DNA of 40,668 nucleotides, taken from assembly GCA_021296375.1 (NCBI GenBank), contig JAGWAQ010000001.1, positions 1 through 40,668 on the forward strand, read 5' to 3'. Every line of letters begins with the position of its first letter. Within the stretch, counting starts at the first letter, position 1. Positions 8,776 to 34,730 of this stretch are shown here, in pieces. The position numbers were made by a program, and so were the translations under genes. The notes under the pieces were generated by a model. That model worked only from the letters and a program-made list of their open reading frames with translations. It was not told the origin of the DNA and did not search any database. Origin of the DNA: Alphaproteobacteria bacterium. Its GTDB lineage: Bacteria > Pseudomonadota > Alphaproteobacteria > Puniceispirillales > UBA1172.

Positions 8776-9197
8776 CAGGCTTCGGGGCTTTTTTCAATCG
8801 ACCACTGCATGTGCACGAGCGTCAGGCGCGCCTGGGCAAGTTGCGGCGCCATGGCGGGGCGGCGGCGGAAGCCCCGCAACCTGACAACAAGGCTTATGCC
8901 GTGCGGCTGAAAACCGGCAGTTTTGACATCTTTATCGGCGTGTCGGCCAAAGCCCTGCTGCAGCGTTCGCACCAGGGCGCGGCGGGAATCGCGGTGACAA
9001 CCGCGCTGGCGATCAAGCAGCTGCGGGGGGAATGGCAGGGCATCCACAACGCTGATGTGGATGTGCGGCGGGTGCCGGAGCTGGACGGTCTGCTCTGCAA
9101 TGATCTCGATTACAATCACGAGGTGGCTTTCCGTGAAGGCATCGCCACCATCCCGCCGTCCACGCGCTGGGTTATGGATGACGAGGTGCTGGCATGA
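8772..9197 (+). CDS. Hypothetical early protein (141 aa)
   Basis: MTGFGAFFNRPLHVHERQARLGKLRRHGG...; coupled ATGA junctions. Confidence 0.6.
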   Translation: MTGFGAFFNRPLHVHERQARLGKLRRHGGAAAEAPQPDNKAYAVRLKTGSFDIFIGVSAKALLQRSHQGAAGIAVTTALAIKQLRGEWQGIHNADVDVRRVPELDGLLCNDLDYNHEVAFREGIATIPPSTRWVMDDEVLA

Positions 9198-10162
9198 GCG
9201 GCAAGATAGAACAGATTGCCATCACCTCGATCGAGATCGGCACGCGGATCCGCGGGCTTGGCCGCCATCAGGTCGAGGTGCTGAAGGAAACGATTGCGCG
9301 GCAAGGGATATTGCAACCGGTGACGATCCGCCGTCAACGTGGAGGCAATCGGCCGTTCCGGCTGATTTCCGGCTGGCACCGCATCGCCGCGGCGGAAGCG
9401 CTGGGGCATCAGGAGGTGCCGGCGGTGGTGGCGGATGTTACGGCGGCGCAAGCAGGGCTGATGGAGGTTGACGAGAATCTCGGCCAGGGGCAGATGTTTC
9501 CGATTGACAAGGCGGCGCTGGTTGCGGCAAGGTTGAGCCACTGGCAGGCGATCCATCCTGCCCGTCGAGGCGGAGATCGCAAATCTGCCGAGGCAAGAAA
9601 ATCAAAAGTGCCATCATGGCACTTTGATATTCCTGAACAAAATCAAGGATTTACCTCTGATAAAAAAATCAGGGCGGCGGCGGAGCAGGTTGCCGCTGAT
9701 TTCGGCGAAGCGACGGCGGCGGCCGTAGGCCTATCCCGCCGTCATGTTTATCGACTACTCGCGATTCACCGGCGGCTTCGCCCAAATATTCACGAGCTGA
9801 TCTACTCCACCCCCCCCAAAATCTACACCTCCATTAACCAGCTGTATCGGTTGAGCAAGGAAACCCCTGATATTCAGGCGCTGGTGCTGGCGGCGTGCCG
9901 CGACAAACAGCTGACGACGGTGTCGGCGGGGGTGCGGGTGGCCATGGGCAGGGCGGTGCCGAGGCCCGACCCAATGATGCGGTTTGAGACCTTATGGGCG
10001 TCGATGACGCGCAAGCAACGCGCCAAGGTGCTGGCGCGGCTGAAGCCGGAGTTTCTGGAATGGGAGAAAAACCCCAATAAGGCGGGGCTTGAAGTGGTGG
10101 TGGATAATGACGCGCCGCTTGAGGATGACACGCCGCGTGATGATGACGGGGTGCAAGGATGA
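9194..10162 (+). CDS. ParB/Spo0J-like nuclease-fold DNA-binding protein (322 aa)
   Basis: ITSIEIGTRIRGLGRHQVEVLKETIARQGILQPVTIRR...FRLISGWHRIAAAEALGHQEVPAVVAD; central HTH-like region. Confidence 0.8.
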   Translation: MSGKIEQIAITSIEIGTRIRGLGRHQVEVLKETIARQGILQPVTIRRQRGGNRPFRLISGWHRIAAAEALGHQEVPAVVADVTAAQAGLMEVDENLGQGQMFPIDKAALVAARLSHWQAIHPARRGGDRKSAEARKSKVPSWHFDIPEQNQGFTSDKKIRAAAEQVAADFGEATAAAVGLSRRHVYRLLAIHRRLRPNIHELIYSTPPKIYTSINQLYRLSKETPDIQALVLAACRDKQLTTVSAGVRVAMGRAVPRPDPMMRFETLWASMTRKQRAKVLARLKPEFLEWEKNPNKAGLEVVVDNDAPLEDDTPRDDDGVQG

Positions 10163-12000
10163 GCTGGATGAGCCTGAGCGAGATGCTGGCGCAACGCTGG
10201 CGCGGCTGGCCCCGCACCAGGGCGGGGGTCCGCGGCCGGTGCAAAACGCTCGGCTGGCCATCCCGCCAGCGCGGCAATAAAACGGAATTTAAATGCGATT
10301 TAACGTTGGTGCAAAAGCCGGTTAAGTCGTCATCAATGACCGCATCATCAATGGCCGCGCCGCTGGACCCGGCGGAACTGTGGCGGGGCTGGGAAGCGCG
10401 GGGTGAGCGTGACCGTGCGGTGAGCATGACGCGGGCTGACCTGCTTGACCTGCTGGATGAAATGCAGGCGCAGGGCGCGCCGCGAATGGCGGCACTGGAG
10501 GCGGTGGCGGCGCGCGGCGGTGTCAGCACGGCGAGTTTGCGCCGCTGGCGGAATCTGGTGGCCACCGTCCCGCGGGATTTATGGCCAGCGGTGCTGTTGC
10601 CTTGTCGCCGCGGGGGCCGCCCGCCGGAGATCACGACAGATCCTGCCGCCGTCGCCTTCATCAAATCTGATTATTTGCGGGCCTCGCAACCGAGCTGGTC
10701 GAGCTGCTATCAGCGGCTGATGCAGGTGGCGGAAACCCGCGGCTGGATCGTTGGCTTGCCGCGCACCCTGAAGCGGCAGGTGCTGGACAGCTTGCCGCAT
10801 GAGGTGGTGGTGGCGGCGCGCAAGGGCGAGGCTGAGCTGAAAACCATGTTTCCGCCGCAACGCCGCAAGCGCGCGCATCTCGGGGCCATGGGGGCCGTCA
10901 ACCTTGACGGCCATCTATGGGACGTGATGGTCGAGTGGGAGGACGGCACACGAAGCCGCCCGATGATGACCGCCGCCCAGGATGTCGGTTCCGGCAAGAT
11001 GCTGGCCTGGCGGCTGGCGCCGCAGGAAGACGCCTTGACGGTGCGCTTGATGCTGGCGGATATGTTCAAAAACCACGGGTTGCCGGAGAAAATTTACATG
11101 GATAACGGGCGGGCTTTTGCCGCCAAATCCATCAGCGGCGGGTCGGTCAATCGATTCCGCTTCAAATTCAAGCCCGAAGACCCCGTGGGAATCCTCAAGC
11201 TGCTGAATATCGAGGCGCATTTCACCAAGCCGTATTCCGGCCAGTCGAAGCCGATCGAGCGGGCGTTCCGGGATCTGGCGGATCATGTCGCCAAACACCC
11301 TGCCGCTGAAGGTGCTTATCTGGGCAACACCCCCGCCAATCGCCCCGACAAGGCGGGGCGTGCGGTGCCAATCGCGGAGTTCCGCAAGCTGGTCGATCAG
11401 GGCATGACCCTGCATAACGCCCGGCCGGGGCGGCAAACGGAAGCCTGCCGCGGGGTGCTGAGTTTCGATGACGCGTTTGCGGAGCTGGCGCGAGACATGC
11501 CGGTGCGGCGGGCGACGGCGGCGCAGTTGCGGCTGGCCTTGCTGGCGAGCCAGCCGGTGCGCGCCTCCCGCCAATCGGGGCTGATCGAGCTGATGGGCAA
11601 CCGGTATTGGTCGGGCTGGATGAATCAGGTGGCGGGGCAAAAAGTCGTGGTGCGGTTTGACCCTGAAGACCTCAAGCAGAATATCTATCTCTACAATCTT
11701 GAAGGCAAGTTCCTCGGCACGGCGGAGCTGTTCGCCGACGCCGGATTTGATGACATGGCGGCGGCAAAAGCCCATGAGAAAAAGCGGCGTCAGAAAACAA
11801 AATTGACGAGAGAGTTGCTGGATCTCGAACGGCGATTGTCCCCGCGCGAGGTGGCGGCGGCGATTCCTGATGTGGAATTGCCGAAGCCGGACAGCTGGCC
11901 GGTAGTCCGCATGACGCCATTGAATTTGCCGGAAGATGATGACGGCGACATCTCCGCCCGCGATCTGGCGGCGGGACTTGAAAAAATGGGAGGTCAGTAA
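10159..12000 (+). CDS. Mu A-like DDE transposase (613 aa)
   Basis: HTH N-terminus; GAVNLDGHLWDVMVEWEDGTRSRPMMTAAQDVGSGKML..IYMDNGRAF.. DDE core; followed by an ATPase gene as in Mu A-B. Confidence 0.9.
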   Translation: MSWMSLSEMLAQRWRGWPRTRAGVRGRCKTLGWPSRQRGNKTEFKCDLTLVQKPVKSSSMTASSMAAPLDPAELWRGWEARGERDRAVSMTRADLLDLLDEMQAQGAPRMAALEAVAARGGVSTASLRRWRNLVATVPRDLWPAVLLPCRRGGRPPEITTDPAAVAFIKSDYLRASQPSWSSCYQRLMQVAETRGWIVGLPRTLKRQVLDSLPHEVVVAARKGEAELKTMFPPQRRKRAHLGAMGAVNLDGHLWDVMVEWEDGTRSRPMMTAAQDVGSGKMLAWRLAPQEDALTVRLMLADMFKNHGLPEKIYMDNGRAFAAKSISGGSVNRFRFKFKPEDPVGILKLLNIEAHFTKPYSGQSKPIERAFRDLADHVAKHPAAEGAYLGNTPANRPDKAGRAVPIAEFRKLVDQGMTLHNARPGRQTEACRGVLSFDDAFAELARDMPVRRATAAQLRLALLASQPVRASRQSGLIELMGNRYWSGWMNQVAGQKVVVRFDPEDLKQNIYLYNLEGKFLGTAELFADAGFDDMAAAKAHEKKRRQKTKLTRELLDLERRLSPREVAAAIPDVELPKPDSWPVVRMTPLNLPEDDDGDISARDLAAGLEKMGGQ

Positions 12001-12978
12001 ATGACACAAAGTGCAGAAAAAAGTGCAGAACAGACAATCATCACCCGCAATGACGCGATCATCGATGCCGTCAAAAAGCAGATGGCGGCGGAGAAAACCT
12101 CGCAAGCGGATCTGGCGCGGGTGCTGGGGGTGTCCACCACCCTGATCAATCAGGTGCTGAAGGGAATTTACAAGGGCGACCTTGGCTCGATCCTGCTCAA
12201 GCTTGAGCAATGGAGCGCCGATCGCCGTGACGCGGCAGAGGCGCGGGCGCAGGCGGTGACGGCGCCGGATTTTATGGAAACGCCGACGGCGGTGGAGTTC
12301 ATGACGGCCCTGTCCGTCAGCCAGCAGCTGAAGAAATACATAATCATCACCGGCGCGCCGGGGGTGGGGAAGACCATGGCGGCGCGGGAATATTTCCGGC
12401 GCCACAGTGCCGTCACCATGGTGACGCTGTCGCCGGTGGTGAGCCGCCCGCTGAGCCTGCTCCAGCATCTTTCTGACGAGCTGAACATTTCAACCAGGGT
12501 GCAATCGCGGATGACCCGCAACCTGATCGACTATTGGAACGCTCGCCCCGGCGGCATGCTGATTGTTGATGAGGCGCAGCACCTCAGCACTCAGGCGCTG
12601 GATGAGCTGCGCTCGATCCATGATCAAAGCGCCGTCGGGATTGCCCTGCTGGGCAACGAGAATCTGATCGAGCGCCTAACTGGTGACAACACGGCGGTTG
12701 AATTTGGCCAGCTGCGGTCACGCTTCAGCATCCGCGTGCGGCGCCGCACGCCAATGCCGCAGGACATTGAGATGATGCTCAATGCCTGGGCGATCAGCTC
12801 AAAAGAAATGCGGGTGTTCCTCGTCAAGGTGGCCAGCAAGCTCGGGCATCTGCGAACCCTCAATAACGTGCTGGAAATGGCGGTCGCCCTTGCCCAAGGC
12901 AAGCAGGCGGCGCTTGAGCTGAAGCATCTGAAACAGGCCTATGTTTATCAATCGGGCCATCAACTCGAAGGAGCATAA
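12001..12978 (+). CDS. Mu B-like AAA ATPase with N-terminal HTH (325 aa)
   Basis: Walker A TGAPGVGKT, Walker B MLIVDEAQHL; N-terminal ADLARVLGVSTTLINQVLKG HTH. Confidence 0.9.
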   Translation: MTQSAEKSAEQTIITRNDAIIDAVKKQMAAEKTSQADLARVLGVSTTLINQVLKGIYKGDLGSILLKLEQWSADRRDAAEARAQAVTAPDFMETPTAVEFMTALSVSQQLKKYIIITGAPGVGKTMAAREYFRRHSAVTMVTLSPVVSRPLSLLQHLSDELNISTRVQSRMTRNLIDYWNARPGGMLIVDEAQHLSTQALDELRSIHDQSAVGIALLGNENLIERLTGDNTAVEFGQLRSRFSIRVRRRTPMPQDIEMMLNAWAISSKEMRVFLVKVASKLGHLRTLNNVLEMAVALAQGKQAALELKHLKQAYVYQSGHQLEGA

Positions 12979-26040: not shown

Positions 26041-26382
26041 ATGTCGATTCCAAAGGCACAGATTGAGAAAATCACGGCGCATCTGGCGGCGGAAGGCACC
26101 ACCGTCCAACATTCCACCCCGATTGAAAAGAAAGGGAAGCATGGCCGCAAAATCGCCAAGATGCAGACCACCGACGACATCATCACCCCTGATGATGTGC
26201 TGGCGGCGAACGGTCATCCTGATGGCGGCTGGACGCTGGTGACGGTTGACGGGCAGAAATTCCATGTTGCTGAAGGCGAGCTGGTCACTGCCGCGCCACC
26301 GCCACCACCACCACCACCGCCACCACCACCGCCTAAGGCACCCAAGGCACCCAAGGCACCCAAAACCGGGGGCAATAAGTAA
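26041..26382 (+). CDS. Hypothetical protein with polyproline (P13) and (KAP)3 tail (113 aa)
   Basis: ..TAAPPPPPPPPPPPPPKAPKAPKAPKTGGNK; RBS GAGGGG. Confidence 0.7.
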   Translation: MSIPKAQIEKITAHLAAEGTTVQHSTPIEKKGKHGRKIAKMQTTDDIITPDDVLAANGHPDGGWTLVTVDGQKFHVAEGELVTAAPPPPPPPPPPPPPKAPKAPKAPKTGGNK

Positions 26383-28772
26383 TGAAAACCCTGCTGGAAA
26401 TGCTGATGGAATATTCCGACGGCGCGATCATCGGCCGTGACGCGCTGGCGGAAGCCTGGACCAGTGGTGATCTTGACCAGCTGCGTGACGCCTTGCGTGA
26501 CGCCATCAAGACAACCGAAGGGATGGGTGACGACAGCTGGGTGAACATCGAAGCGATCTTCAGCGATACCGTCATCTTCATCGATGACCTTGATTACATC
26601 CAGTACGACTGGTCCCAGGGCGCGGATGGCGCGATTGTCCTCAGCAACAAGACCAAGGTCATGAAGACCTGGTCTGAAGTGGCGGAAGCCGCGGCGGTGG
26701 ACGCCGGGTTGATTTGCGAAGCGGCGGAAAAGGATGATGCCCTCCATGTCCGCGTCATCAAGGCCGGGGCGTCAGCGGCGTCAGGGGTCTATTACCCCGC
26801 CGAAGAATTGAGGCGGCTGGCGGAAGCCAATGCCGGCAACACCTGGCCTGTCTACGCCGGGTCTGATGAGGACCACCGCAAACGCCCCGGCACCGGCGCT
26901 GACGTGCGCCAGACCATCGGCTGGATCGAAGGCATCAGCTATATCGCCGAGGCCGCGAAAGGCGGGCCTGCCGTTTTCGGGGTCATGCGCTTGCTGGAAC
27001 CCGCCGAAGGGCTGGGCAAAAAGATCATGACCGCTGTGTCCAAAGGCATGCCCGGGCTGTTCGGGCTCAGCATCACCGGGGCGGCGGGGCAGTTCAAGCC
27101 GCGTCACGAGCCCGGCCGCAAGCTGGCCGAAGCCCATAATATAAACATCCAATCCGTTGACATCGTCGCGCGGCCCACCGCCGGCGGGGCTATCCTTAAC
27201 CTGGCGGAAGCCGCCATGCCCGAAGGAGGGGCAGACCCTATGACCAAAGAACAGATCATCGCCGCGCTGGTGGAGAAAGGTTACGCCAAGGCGGCGATCG
27301 CCCATCTTGGTGAAGATGCCCTCACCACCATGCTGACCAACACCCCTGCCGCGGATCCCGCACCGGACGCACCGGTCGCACCGGCTGCCGATCCCGCACC
27401 GGCTGCCGATCCCGCACCGGCCGCGCCGGCTGCTGACGCGGCGGCTATTGCCGAAGCGGCGAAAAAGCAGGTCGCCGAAGCCATGGCACTTGCGGGCGCG
27501 CAGATGGCGGCCAATGATCGCGTCCACCGGTCGGATATTCCCGCCGCCACACGGGACCGCCTGCTTGAGCGGGTGAGCGGCATGACGGATCCGGCGCAGC
27601 TGACGGAAGCGGCGGTCACCAGCCTGATCGAGGCGGAGCGGAGCTACCTGGCGGAGGCCGGCGGCACCGCAGGTGGCATCCCCGATTTTAAACTGCCGTC
27701 GGTCAAGGTAACGGATAACGCCAACATGCTGACGGAAGCGGCGGTGGCCATGCTCGACCCCGGCCACAAGGACCATGGCCTCGCCATGCGTGAGCTGGGG
27801 GGGCTGAAGGGGCTTTACCTGAAAACCACTGGTGACAGATTGCTGAGCGGGTTCAGCCGCAAGCATATTGTTGAAGCGGCGGTCAGCTCCTCGACCTTTG
27901 ATCAGATCCTCGGGGACAGCATCCACCGCGTCTTGATGATGCGCTATGATTTCATGATGCAGACGACGCGCTGGAACGAGCTGGTGAGCAGCACCCGCGC
28001 GATCATGGATTTCAAGGATCACCGATTCAGTAATGTCGGTGGATACGGCACGATTCCTGATGTCAATGAAGGCGCCAGCTATAACGACCTGACCCACCCC
28101 ACGGAGTGGGAAGCCAACTTTGCCGTAAGCAAGCGCGGCGGCGTCATCCCCGTCACCTTCGAGATGATCCGTAACGATGACATGGCCCTGCTTCAGCGGC
28201 TGATCGAAAAGGCGGCGGAAGCCTGTGTCTTCACCCTCAATGATTTTGTTTTTGGTTTGGTGACGCAATCGAGCGGCAACATCTATGATGGCGCGGTGCT
28301 GTATTCCGCCACCCGTGGCAACCTTGGCACCACGGCGTTTTCCAAAGCGGCCTTCCGCACGGCGGATATCGCCCTGCGCAAGCAGCAGGAGTTGAGCAGC
28401 ACACGTCCGCTCAACATGCCGACCAAGAAAATTATCTGTTCCATTGACCTGGAGCCGACCATTCTGGACGCGCAACAGCGCGGCACGGAAAACGACCCTG
28501 ACACCGACACGTCACGGATGCGGGCGGTCGATGTCGTTCCTTGGGAGGGCATGACCGATGAAAATGACTGGTACCAGCTGGCCGACCCCATGCGATGCCC
28601 CGGGATTGAGGTCGGTTTCCTTGATGGCAAGAAGGAGCCAGAGGTGATCAACCGTGACAATGTCATGGAAGGCCCGGCGTTCACCAATGACCAAATGGAG
28701 TTCAAGCTGCGTCATATTTATGGCGGCACCGTTTCCGACTGGCGGTCAATGCGGGCCAACAGACCAGCTTAA
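26382..28772 (+). CDS. Fused prohead protease - scaffold - major capsid protein (796 aa)
   Basis: N-terminal protease-like region (..YYPAEELRRLAEANAGNTWPVYAGSDEDHRKRP...GLFGLSITGAAG..), Ala/Pro/Asp-rich central linker, C-terminal Mu-T/HK97-like capsid region. Confidence 0.8.
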   Translation: MKTLLEMLMEYSDGAIIGRDALAEAWTSGDLDQLRDALRDAIKTTEGMGDDSWVNIEAIFSDTVIFIDDLDYIQYDWSQGADGAIVLSNKTKVMKTWSEVAEAAAVDAGLICEAAEKDDALHVRVIKAGASAASGVYYPAEELRRLAEANAGNTWPVYAGSDEDHRKRPGTGADVRQTIGWIEGISYIAEAAKGGPAVFGVMRLLEPAEGLGKKIMTAVSKGMPGLFGLSITGAAGQFKPRHEPGRKLAEAHNINIQSVDIVARPTAGGAILNLAEAAMPEGGADPMTKEQIIAALVEKGYAKAAIAHLGEDALTTMLTNTPAADPAPDAPVAPAADPAPAADPAPAAPAADAAAIAEAAKKQVAEAMALAGAQMAANDRVHRSDIPAATRDRLLERVSGMTDPAQLTEAAVTSLIEAERSYLAEAGGTAGGIPDFKLPSVKVTDNANMLTEAAVAMLDPGHKDHGLAMRELGGLKGLYLKTTGDRLLSGFSRKHIVEAAVSSSTFDQILGDSIHRVLMMRYDFMMQTTRWNELVSSTRAIMDFKDHRFSNVGGYGTIPDVNEGASYNDLTHPTEWEANFAVSKRGGVIPVTFEMIRNDDMALLQRLIEKAAEACVFTLNDFVFGLVTQSSGNIYDGAVLYSATRGNLGTTAFSKAAFRTADIALRKQQELSSTRPLNMPTKKIICSIDLEPTILDAQQRGTENDPDTDTSRMRAVDVVPWEGMTDENDWYQLADPMRCPGIEVGFLDGKKEPEVINRDNVMEGPAFTNDQMEFKLRHIYGGTVSDWRSMRANRPA
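27240..28772 (+). CDS. Putative nested in-frame product (scaffold-capsid, 510 aa) from an internal start
   Basis: AAGGAGGGG (27223-27231), 8 nt, ATG 27240, in frame with the 26382 ORF (858 nt); MTKEQIIAALVEKGY... Confidence 0.55.
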   Translation: MTKEQIIAALVEKGYAKAAIAHLGEDALTTMLTNTPAADPAPDAPVAPAADPAPAADPAPAAPAADAAAIAEAAKKQVAEAMALAGAQMAANDRVHRSDIPAATRDRLLERVSGMTDPAQLTEAAVTSLIEAERSYLAEAGGTAGGIPDFKLPSVKVTDNANMLTEAAVAMLDPGHKDHGLAMRELGGLKGLYLKTTGDRLLSGFSRKHIVEAAVSSSTFDQILGDSIHRVLMMRYDFMMQTTRWNELVSSTRAIMDFKDHRFSNVGGYGTIPDVNEGASYNDLTHPTEWEANFAVSKRGGVIPVTFEMIRNDDMALLQRLIEKAAEACVFTLNDFVFGLVTQSSGNIYDGAVLYSATRGNLGTTAFSKAAFRTADIALRKQQELSSTRPLNMPTKKIICSIDLEPTILDAQQRGTENDPDTDTSRMRAVDVVPWEGMTDENDWYQLADPMRCPGIEVGFLDGKKEPEVINRDNVMEGPAFTNDQMEFKLRHIYGGTVSDWRSMRANRPA

Positions 28773-30614: not shown

Positions 30615-30803
30615 ATGCCGAAGACACCCACCCCCCCGACCAAACCAGCGGCGGCTAAGACAGACGATCCGCGCCCGGGCAAGGGCGGAAGCTATTATTT
30701 TGTAGACGGGAACATGACCCCCTCAGCTCGCCCAGAAACCACCCCCGCCAAAACCGACACCGGCAACACCGACCCCGCCACCACCGACAAAGGAGACGCG
30801 TAA
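30615..30803 (+). CDS. Small Pro/Thr/Lys-rich protein (62 aa)
   Basis: TGGAGGAC upstream of ATG; coupled to the tail tube gene. Confidence 0.55.
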   Translation: MPKTPTPPTKPAAAKTDDPRPGKGGSYYFVDGNMTPSARPETTPAKTDTGNTDPATTDKGDA

Positions 30804-31720
30804 TGGCACCCCCTATTATCTATCGGCTAGGGCTTGTCCTCGCCCGAATCGAAACCACGGAAGGTAATTTCCTGCAGCCGTCCAGCACCGACGCCGTGCT
30901 GTACCAGAACCTGACCATCGAGCCGGTCGCCGGAACATCCATCGATCGCCCCAACGAGCGCGGCGGGCTGGAGACCTATTCCAGCTCACCGGTTGGCACC
31001 CATTCTATTGTCAATTTCAGCGTTGAGCTGGCCGCCAGTGGCACCATCGACACGCCGCCGGCTTTTGCCAACCTGCTGCGTGGGTGCGGCATGTCGGAAA
31101 CCATCACCGCCAACACCCAGGTGCGCTATCGGCTGGCGGATGAGGATTTCGAGAGCCTGTCCCTCGAGCTTTATATTGACGGCATCCGCACCCGCCTGAG
31201 CGGCGCGCGGGGAACCTTCACCTGCTCGATGGACAACAACACCAACCCGATGCTGAATTTCACCTTCACGGGCAGAAAGACCACGCCGATCGACGCCGAC
31301 AATGTCATCACCGATGTCAGCGATTACCAGCGCCCGCTGGTCATCAATTATGACAACACGACCTTCACGCTTGATGGCACCAGCCCGTCATTGGCGGCGC
31401 TGACGATTGACCTCGGCAACACCGTCACCCACCGTGACATGGTCAATCGTGAAGACGTCATCATCACCGATCGTCAATGCGGCGGCTCCGTCACCTTCGA
31501 TATGCCGCCGGTCAGTGACGAGGATTACATCGAAAAATCGCAAGACGGGGATGAGATGGCCTTCAGCCTGAACCACGGCTCGTCCAATGGCGAGCGGGTG
31601 GAATGGACCTGCTCAACAACGCAACTGACTGGTGCCGCCATGCAGAACGGCGACGGCGTGCTGCAGCTGTCGGGCGGGTTGCGCTTCGTCGGCAATTCCC
31701 TGACCCTCACCTTCCGCTAG
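30803..31720 (+). CDS. Siphovirus tail tube protein (305 aa)
   Basis: Gene order and composition; LRGCGMSETITANTQVRYRL... typical of tail tube proteins. Confidence 0.8.
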   Translation: MAPPIIYRLGLVLARIETTEGNFLQPSSTDAVLYQNLTIEPVAGTSIDRPNERGGLETYSSSPVGTHSIVNFSVELAASGTIDTPPAFANLLRGCGMSETITANTQVRYRLADEDFESLSLELYIDGIRTRLSGARGTFTCSMDNNTNPMLNFTFTGRKTTPIDADNVITDVSDYQRPLVINYDNTTFTLDGTSPSLAALTIDLGNTVTHRDMVNREDVIITDRQCGGSVTFDMPPVSDEDYIEKSQDGDEMAFSLNHGSSNGERVEWTCSTTQLTGAAMQNGDGVLQLSGGLRFVGNSLTLTFR

Positions 31721-31735
31721 AAAAGGAGGCTACCC

Positions 31736-32122
31736 ATGCCATTCCAATTCACCGCCGACGCCACGTTCAAATGGCCCGTCACCATCATCAAGCCGGTGCC
31801 TGACCAGCCGGGCCAGACCACCAGCCATGAGTTCATCGGCGTCTTCAAGCAGCAAATGCAACATGCCCATGACGCGTTGAACGACAGCCTGAACGAGATT
31901 GACCCCCGTTCCCCCACCGCCCTGGAAGAAGCCGCGGCGATCAACCGCGAGTGGTACCGGCAGATCCTCGTCGACTGGGAGGATATCCTTGACGGCGAGG
32001 GCCAGCCCCTGCCCTTCAGCGCGGCAAATCTCGATCTGTTGCTGACGGACCCGGTGGTTGGGCTTTGCATTTCCAAAGCTTATAACGCGTCGCAGAAACA
32101 GGACGCCCAGAAAAAAAACTGA
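31736..32122 (+). CDS. Tail assembly chaperone, short form (G-like)
   Basis: Between tail tube and tape measure; ends ...QDAQKKN* at a slippery run. Confidence 0.8.
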   Translation: MPFQFTADATFKWPVTIIKPVPDQPGQTTSHEFIGVFKQQMQHAHDALNDSLNEIDPRSPTALEEAAAINREWYRQILVDWEDILDGEGQPLPFSAANLDLLLTDPVVGLCISKAYNASQKQDAQKKN

Positions 32123-32517
32123 TCGCGCTGGCGCGGCGATGGTTCACCCCATCCCCCGTCAGCAGTGCCGCCGACAGAGAGGATTTGCAAATGCAGGCCG
32201 AGGCCCTGGGCATTGACGCCGCGGCGTTCAAGCGGATGATGCCGCCGGAAGCTGGCGCCCCTGATGGCGCCCCTGATGGCACCCCGCCCGACGTGCTGGA
32301 GGTGCTGCCCGCCAACACCAACGCCGCGTGGCTGTTCCTGACCTGCTCGAGCCAATGGCGGGTGGCGGGCATGTCGGGCCAGCCCATGGGGCTGGACATG
32401 GGGGCGGTGGCCACCATCGCCCGGGCGCGCGACATCCCCCTTGACGCCGACACGCTCGACCGCCTACTGGTGATCGAGCGTGAGGCGCTGCGCTTGATGC
32501 AGAAGGCGGTGGCATGA
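31736..32517 (+). CDS. Tail assembly chaperone, -1 frameshift product (GT-like), join(31736..32119,32119..32517), about 260 aa
   Basis: Canonical heptamer A_AAA_AAC at 32113-32119 one codon before the 0-frame TGA; the -1 frame is open from there to 32517 (LIALARRWFTPSPVSSAADRED-LQMQAEALG...). Confidence 0.85.
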
Positions 32518-34730
32518 CCTACACCATCCAGACCACCATCACCGCCGACACACGGCCCTTTACCCGCGGCACCCGCCGCGCGGAACAGGCGGCGGACAAG
32601 TTCCGCAATCGGCTTGACCAGACCGACCGCAGTGCCCGCAAGGCGGCGGGCGGCATTGGCGCGACGGCGGGCGCGGCGGGGGCGCTGAAGACGGCGATCG
32701 CCGGGCTGAGCTTCGGCCTGCTCCTGCGCCAGACCACCCAGATTACGCGCGGCATCCTCAACACCCGAAAGCAGTTCGAGGATCTGCGCAACACCTTGAC
32801 GGTGCTGTCGGGGGGGGTTCAGCAGGCGGATCGTGACTTTGAATTGATCCGCGACTTTGCCAGCACCACGCAATTCTCAGTGCAGGAACTGGTCCAAGGG
32901 TTCAGCCTGCTCAGGGCGGTGGGGATTGACCCCACCACCGACAGCCTGAAAGGGCTGGGTGAGATCGCGTCAGCGTTTAGTCGTGAATTTGGTGATGTCG
33001 TGCTGGCGGCCATTTCCGGTGAGGCGGAAACCCTCAAAAAGCTCGGCATCACCCTGCGCCGAAATGGCGAAGAAGCTACGCTGATCTACAAGGGCGTCAG
33101 TCAAAACCTTGTTAATGACAATAAGGTGATTACTCAAGCCATTATTGATCTGGGAAATACGGCCTTGACGGGAAGCATCGCGCTTGCCGCCAACTCCATC
33201 AGCACGCTCGAATCAAATGTCGGTGACGCGCGCGAGGGTTTTGAAGAGATGATAGCCACCAGCCGCGGGATGGATGATGCCTGGAAAGAGTTGAATCGCA
33301 CGGTCATAGAATTATTCAATTCTAATGATGAGCTTGCCAAGGCCATTGGTGAAGACCTTGCCGATGCCCTGAATGCCATCACCGACATCCTGAAGTCAGG
33401 CGTTATTCAAAACAGTCTTGCCGAAATTTATGAAACATTGAGCAACATTGCCAGCATTGGCGGCGGCGCCCTAGCTGGCGGTATTCTGGGCAAGCTTTCA
33501 AAGTTTGCTGCGGGCGCGGCGACGGGCGGTGCCAGGGGATCGCGGCTGGGATGGTTGGGTGCCTTGATTGGCGGCACCATCGGGGGAATTTCATCATCTC
33601 GTGATGATGATGATGAATTGTTGCCGTTCGAGTTGCGCCGCATGCTGAAGGTTGCAGAGAAGCGCGCTGAAACACTCAGAGGAGATATTTCAAATGCCGA
33701 ACAACTGCAAGACGCCGGAATAAACCAGCCCAATCTTCCTTCGATGCGCAATCAATTGATGAATATGAATGATCACATCAATCGATTACAGCGTGAAATC
33801 AACATTAGGAGAGCCGCCGAACCTCCCGAACAGGATTATGTTGATCTGGGTTTTGTCAGCCCCCATGACACCGCGGTCGGCTTTGCGCCGCCTGGCATGG
33901 CCCTGCCGACGGAACGGAACATGCAGGAGATTATGGGCCGCAATTTCGGTTCCTATCTTGACGACATCCGCGAGGCCAACCGGCTGGAGCTGATGCGCGC
34001 GCAGGGGCTTGACCACCTGATCGAGCAGGAGGAGGCCATCAACCGCGTCCGCGCCGAGGCGCGTGAGCGCTATGGCGAGAACATCGAGCTGACGAAACTG
34101 CAGGAGGACGCCATCCGCAACCTCATTATCACCCAGCAGCAGCAGCTTGAGCAGATGGAGCTGGTCAGCGCCGGGGCCGACCGGTTTGGTGATGTCGCCA
34201 CACGCAGCTTTGACGCCCTGCTGGACAACACCAAGAGCTTCGCTGACGCCTTCAAATCAATTTTGCGGGACATCGTCCTCGACCTGATCCGCGCCCAGAT
34301 CAGGATGCAGGCGGTGCAGTTTTTCACCGGCCTGTTCGCCCCCGCCCCCGCCTTCACCGACATCGGGGCGGGCGCGGGCGGTGTTGGCGGCGGCTTCACC
34401 AGCATCAACCACTATGGCGGTATGCCCGGCCAGGCGGCCATGCGATACGATGAGGTGCCGACGGTGCTGCGGCGTGACGAAGAGGTGCTGAACACCTCCG
34501 ACCCCCGCCACCGCCGCAATCGCGGCATGAGCGGCGGCATGAGCGGTGGTGGCGCCACCTATAACCTTGACCTCGCCGTTTACGGGGAGGCCAGCGAAGC
34601 GCAGGTGGAGGGCGCCGTGGCCCGCGCCATGAGCGCGGCAGTGCCGGGCATCATTCGGGCATCGGCTGACATCACCCGTGGTGAGCTGATCGAGGACAGT
34701 ATCGACGGCAGCAACAACGGAGGGTTCTAA
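32514..34730 (+). CDS. Tape measure protein (738 aa)
   Basis: Long coiled-coil/hydrophobic tail protein; ATGA overlap with the chaperone extension; ..SFADAFKSILRDIVLDLIRAQIRMQAVQFFTGLF.. Confidence 0.9.
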   Translation: MTYTIQTTITADTRPFTRGTRRAEQAADKFRNRLDQTDRSARKAAGGIGATAGAAGALKTAIAGLSFGLLLRQTTQITRGILNTRKQFEDLRNTLTVLSGGVQQADRDFELIRDFASTTQFSVQELVQGFSLLRAVGIDPTTDSLKGLGEIASAFSREFGDVVLAAISGEAETLKKLGITLRRNGEEATLIYKGVSQNLVNDNKVITQAIIDLGNTALTGSIALAANSISTLESNVGDAREGFEEMIATSRGMDDAWKELNRTVIELFNSNDELAKAIGEDLADALNAITDILKSGVIQNSLAEIYETLSNIASIGGGALAGGILGKLSKFAAGAATGGARGSRLGWLGALIGGTIGGISSSRDDDDELLPFELRRMLKVAEKRAETLRGDISNAEQLQDAGINQPNLPSMRNQLMNMNDHINRLQREINIRRAAEPPEQDYVDLGFVSPHDTAVGFAPPGMALPTERNMQEIMGRNFGSYLDDIREANRLELMRAQGLDHLIEQEEAINRVRAEARERYGENIELTKLQEDAIRNLIITQQQQLEQMELVSAGADRFGDVATRSFDALLDNTKSFADAFKSILRDIVLDLIRAQIRMQAVQFFTGLFAPAPAFTDIGAGAGGVGGGFTSINHYGGMPGQAAMRYDEVPTVLRRDEEVLNTSDPRHRRNRGMSGGMSGGGATYNLDLAVYGEASEAQVEGAVARAMSAAVPGIIRASADITRGELIEDSIDGSNNGGF

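Follow-up and report, generated by a model that had tools for sequence, protein, structure and literature searches.

In phage lambda and many other phages, G/GT frameshifting is established (PMC5009743), and 6-7% frameshifting has been measured for two genes in a tail-chaperone cluster similar to HK97 (PMC3711429). Slippery heptamers are not equally effective: A_AAA_AAG prompts far more shifting in E. coli than A_AAA_AAC does (PMC5009743), and efficient motifs there favour a ZZN that is all purine or all pyrimidine (PMC4066793). AAC-ending sites have been published for the Acinetobacter phage Loki pair gp12/gp13, where A_AAA_AAC adjoins the stop codon (PMC5313236), and for the pre-tape-measure chaperones of Caulobacter phages phiCbK and Colossus, with slippery AAAAAAC and GGGAAAC (PMC3556154). 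The same two heptamers also occur in haloarchaeal viruses (PMC5009743). Here we describe a G/T pair found in a stretch of 40,668 nucleotides (hereafter the window), and compare it with its relatives and with these systems.

Slip site, encoded proteins and gene neighbourhood

The last codons of the G reading frame are CAG AAA AAA AAC TGA, within which an A8 run (32111-32118) holds the heptamer in X_XXY_YYZ register with the G frame. The -1 codons from 32119 read CTG ATC GCG CTG GCG CGG CGA TGG and the frame stays open until a TGA at 32515-32517, so that translation from the heptamer in this frame gives LIALARRWFTPSPVSSAADREDLQMQAEALGID... and runs to 32517. A first-pass annotation had placed A_AAA_AAC directly before the stop of the ORF at 31736 and had described the -1 frame as open from there through 32517; positions, register and open frame were all confirmed from the sequence (Table 1). 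Taken by itself, a single heptamer at a stop codon is weak evidence, because some XXXYYYZ also precedes the stop at 4 of the 304 ends of window ORFs of at least 60 codons.

Table 1. Features of the G/T locus, in window coordinates
Feature	Position	Strand	Remarks
Tail tube protein gene (V-like)	30803..31720	+	PF18906 Phage_tube_2, E 5.5e-7; phrog_290 tail, E 1.1e-21
G-like tail assembly chaperone, zero-frame product	31736..32122	+	128 aa; phrog_569, 7e-7; phrog_313 tail assembly chaperone, 5e-5
Upstream SD-like AGGA	32100..32103	+	spacing inside E. coli-validated range
Slippery heptamer A_AAA_AAC	32113..32119	+	P-site AAA, A-site AAC
T segment in -1 frame after slip	32119..32517	+	132 codons + stop; DUF1799
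G stop TGA	32120..32122	+	directly abuts heptamer
Candidate downstream stimulatory hairpin	32124..32167	+	first pair after 4 unpaired nt
Possible T start, SD-like AGAGAGGA + ATG 32191 (TTG 32185)	32176..32193	+	
Tape measure protein (H-like)	32514..34730	+	phrog_1716, 8.5e-21; PF20155 TMP_3, 1.1e-5, under curated cut-off

Searched by itself, the G protein of the window matches no Pfam family at E<1. It does, however, align with 96 relatives, and PF08748 (Phage_TAC_4) is matched by 28 of the 70 that were scanned (best 1.8e-31), so that, by way of these aligned relatives, G appears to belong to a Phage_TAC_4-like chaperone family. T matches PF08809 (DUF1799) directly, with an E-value of 1.8e-9 and 38.1 bits, above the curated cut-off of 26, and also matches phrog_680 (1.4e-17). 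AlphaFold models of both proteins have high confidence (pLDDT 93.9 for G and 90.3 for T), and that of T has a confident helix at residues 2-9, just after the slip. The fold of G gave no match with E <= 0.001 in the PDB, and no solved tail-chaperone structure was matched; a PDB sequence search for G and a PDB fold search for T likewise found nothing. Viral predicted models do match the G fold, with E-values between 6e-7 and 7e-4; two carry the name 'tape measure chaperone', and models so named from Serratia phage Scapp (129 and 236 aa) are among the matches. The pre-tape-measure chaperone of Caulobacter phage CcrColossus is a weaker fold match (E 0.05).

As in lambda-type pairs, two ORFs (G and T) lie between the tail tube and tape measure genes, and the lambda-like order of tube, chaperone and tape measure that had been noted earlier is borne out by the family matches of the neighbours. 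The T stop and the tape-measure ATG share the sequence ATGA (32514-32517), so ribosomes in the -1 frame would terminate exactly at the tape-measure start, and GT and tape measure might be translationally coupled.

The element that hosts the pair is a Mu-like transposable siphophage prophage, with MuA, MuB, terminase and head protease/major head protein. Genes for a MuA-type transposase (PF02914, 3e-45) and, after it, a MuB-type ATPase occupy 10159-12978, and a ParB-like gene precedes them (9194-10162); a lambda-like tail module and Mu-like transposition genes are thus combined in one element. Elsewhere in it, a single 796-aa ORF (26382-28772) matches the 'major head and protease' families phrog_4523 and phrog_133; this ORF appears to be a fusion of the head maturation protease with the major head protein via an Ala/Pro/Asp-rich linker. 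Immediately upstream, a small ORF (26041-26382) contains a run of 13 prolines and then KAPKAPKAPK.

Conservation of the heptamer and of the frame behind it

Loci of relatives were drawn from viral contigs, genomes and phage records, distant relatives being obtained with an alignment of T, and at 60% identity the T proteins fell into 98 clusters. Other routes were less productive: no relatives emerged when viral contigs were scanned with the G protein alone, a two-sequence alignment run against genome contigs yielded just 4 loci, and in 136 genomes of the same order the window itself was the sole match.

An in-register heptamer is present at the G end in 97 of the 98 clusters, between which T is less than 60% identical. 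It is A_AAA_AAC in 68, G_GGA_AAC in 22, A_AAA_AAG in 6 and A_AAA_AAT in 1. The stop codon directly abuts the heptamer in 82 of 98 clusters (TGA 59, TAA 18, TAG 5), whereas among the 680 other long-ORF ends of these loci just 3 have an XXXYYYZ (nominal binomial p about 6e-176, a value that ignores residual relatedness), and 15 of 8551 in-register positions upstream within G do. The window's heptamer owes its significance to this conservation at the homologous position. Divergent phages share its location and the open -1 frame behind it: Synechococcus phage S-CBS1 (A_AAA_AAC-TGA), Rhodobacter phage RcWaterboi (G_GGA_AAC-TGA) and KMI8 (A_AAA_AAC-TAA). Furthermore, when G_GGA_AAC is treated as a label on the tree of G and T, 11 changes are needed, at least 6 of them forced by well-supported branches. 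Since Lys and Gly codons are swapped (A_AAA_AAC for G_GGA_AAC) while the slip rule is kept, it is the slippery property that is selected, rather than the encoded peptide.

The sole exception is the cluster of Enterobacter phage ATCEA85 (L209, 1458-1809), in which G ends ...CAAAAGCC TTAA and has no in-register heptamer; this exception remains, and could reflect a sequencing error or another shift mechanism. A clade of five loci (L116, L126, L127, L143 and L187) carries A_AAA_AAG 5-6 codons before the G stop in place of the abutting X_XXA_AAC, and is a natural contrast for the role of the adjacent stop.

The same survey bears on whether the fusion might be made by transcriptional slippage, in which one A added to the A8 run would lead into the same -1 frame as a ribosomal shift. 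The window does have the A8, but runs of this length are rare among the 97 heptamer clusters (A8 in 3, A7 in 21, A6 in 51), the 22 clusters with G_GGA_AAC offer no homopolymer to slip on, and the conserved element follows the tandem-tRNA slip rule with downstream structure. We therefore consider slippage by the polymerase very improbable as the source of the fusion.

If ribosomes enter the T frame at the heptamer, the codons that follow should be maintained as protein even where no start codon precedes them. In the window, the T frame from its upstream stop (32083-32085) to 32185 contains no ATG, GTG or TTG. Straight after the slip, residues conform across the family to a conserved L-x-x-A-[AV]-[R]-x-W pattern, in which the leading L is uninformative because it is forced by the C of the heptamer with the TG or TA of the stop. 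Within 12 codons after the slip, the -1 frame has a stop in 0 of 97 clusters, compared with 20 and 25 clusters for the other two frames. Among 25 independent close pairs, counting only codons before the first ATG, GTG or TTG, substitutions at codon positions 1, 2 and 3 number 27, 24 and 162, which shows, as judged from these comparisons, that the -1 frame, from the slip site up to the first start codon, is under purifying selection at the protein level. Similarly, tblastn with a related T finds phages that match from the first T residue after the slip. We regard this conservation of the -1 frame ahead of any start as the decisive evidence that T would normally be joined to G. Thus, as for lambda-type pairs, a frameshift signal conserved in relatives is accompanied by selection on the part of the -1 frame that precedes all start codons.

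The first-pass annotation had the T ORF starting only at TTG, which is wrong: an in-frame ATG (32191) lies two codons after the TTG (32185), and AGAGAGGA at about 32176-32183, some 7 nt before this ATG, is a reasonable Shine-Dalgarno sequence. With such a start available, and with public annotations usually giving the downstream ORF as a gene of its own, T could be solely a separate protein initiated at ATG 32191 (or TTG 32185), and the heptamer incidental. Initiation at 32191 alone would, however, lose a conserved part of the protein, because the 24 residues before this ATG hold the protein-selected L-x-x-A-x-R-x-W segment. Nor is the start conserved in the family: no ATG lies 15 or more codons before the core motif in 50 of 97 clusters, and 77 of 97 have no SD-preceded start well before it, while the heptamer is conserved. 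Exclusively separate production of T is accordingly, in our judgement, highly unlikely.

A weaker version, in which both products are made (gpGT by frameshifting and, as an extra specific to the window, a short free T from ATG 32191), would account for the good SD and ATG there. Against it, this start is not conserved in the family, and the free T would lack the conserved first helix. We consider it unlikely on balance, though much less so than a T that is exclusively separate.

With respect to annotation, T has been left out, shortened, or had its pieces named 'tail length tape measure protein' in loci L200, L205, L198, L199 and L209; it is apparently mis-annotated because it has no proper start codon.

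Candidate stimulators and a proposed mechanism

A small stem (ATCGC...GCGAT) had been put forward as following the heptamer, but on its own these 26 nt fold no better than shuffled sequence (z -0.35), and the larger hairpin listed in Table 1 is the likelier candidate. As a 66-nt segment, the latter is moderately stable (-25.2 kcal/mol, z -1.45, 200 shuffles), and the 60 nt downstream in the window give a folding z of -2.6 (60 shuffles). Across the family, the mean folding z at +7 to +67 after the heptamer is -1.62, compared with -0.42, +0.03 and -0.22 in control windows. A strict IS3-type hairpin rule is satisfied in 29 of 97 clusters, and in 3-8 when control offsets are taken, but not by the hairpin of the window itself. 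A consistent hairpin in one close cluster starts 5 nt beyond the heptamer; 4 of its pairs show at least one double change, although covariation of the hairpin within this cluster is weak overall (covariation term -0.9).

Upstream, SD-like stimulators have been validated in E. coli at a spacing of 6-17 nt (PMC4066793). An SD-like sequence is found in 39 of 96 family members, about twofold above the control mean of 16.6, but since one control position also reaches 39, we treat a conserved SD-like stimulator as suggestive only.

Minority -1 slippage on A_AAA_AAC, giving gpG and a gpGT fusion chaperone, is very probably the best explanation of the locus. The earlier proposal of a G/GT-like pair made by a -1 frameshift is thus supported by heptamer conservation, selection on the -1 frame, downstream folding and family membership. 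We predict that most ribosomes would stop at TGA 32120 and yield the 128-aa gpG, with an efficiency of slippage such that a minority shift back by one base on the heptamer. This slip may be aided by a pause at the abutting stop, and probably also by the downstream hairpin and the upstream AGGA, each in a predicted role. Slipped ribosomes would read the DUF1799 segment to 32517 and produce a gpGT fusion some 260 aa long. The predicted chaperone function, by analogy with lambda, would be for the G part to coat the tape measure protein and for the T part to recruit the tube protein, and the ratio of G to GT would matter in tail assembly.

The family's near-exclusive use of X_XXA_AAC abutting the stop is the one point of mechanistic interest, because A_AAA_AAC works much less well in E. 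coli than A_AAA_AAG does, and this preference conflicts with the E. coli rules for efficient -1 motifs. It is possible, and we suggest it tentatively, that the frameshift signal of the very large DUF1799 family has two parts, X_XXA_AAC and the abutting stop; once in the A site, the stop codon would cause a pause or permit slippage of the P-site Asn-tRNA, and so enable a heptamer that is otherwise poorly used. The stop abuts 80 of 90 X_XXA_AAC sites versus 1 of 6 A_AAA_AAG sites, a correlation that amounts to roughly a single contrast because five of the six AAG sites belong to one clade. Through this preference, the family allows one to test directly whether bacterial -1 slippage is driven by an A-site stop codon.

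Comparison with described systems

DUF1799 is most likely the frameshift-made C-terminal domain of a Phage_TAC_4-like chaperone in hundreds of phages; it is otherwise usually annotated as a separate hypothetical ORF or mis-called 'tape measure'. In the open literature searched, we found no paper linking DUF1799 to frameshifting. The near-exclusive use of a "mammalian-like" X_XXA_AAC at the stop is mildly unusual, single cases of it having been published already.

The nearest counterparts are RcWaterboi gp47/gp48 and S-CBS1 gp13/gp14, which consist of a homologous G and a DUF1799 T and, as in the window, have the heptamer directly before TGA and an open -1 frame. Their proteins are about 25-31% identical to those of the window, and they are annotated as separate genes without a frameshift. 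The resemblance of the Colossus chaperone to the window's G is a weak structural match only. HK97 gp13/gp14 is, like the window's pair, a tail chaperone pair with an annotated -1 frameshift, but unlike the window's G, the last 20 codons of gp13 contain no in-register XXXYYYZ.

With lambda, the window shares the order V-G-T-H, a short chaperone with a -1 extension, and a heptamer near the end of G. In lambda, however, the heptamer is G_GGA_AAG, placed 5 codons ahead of the G stop, whereas the AAC-ending heptamer of the window abuts the stop. The window's proteins are Phage_TAC_4-like and DUF1799, and the likeness to lambda described here is one of gene order and frameshift layout. The locus is real, functional-looking and ordinary in kind: it belongs to the G/GT class of -1 frameshifts, a well-known phage strategy, and brings a Mu-like transposable prophage into the set of G/GT systems.
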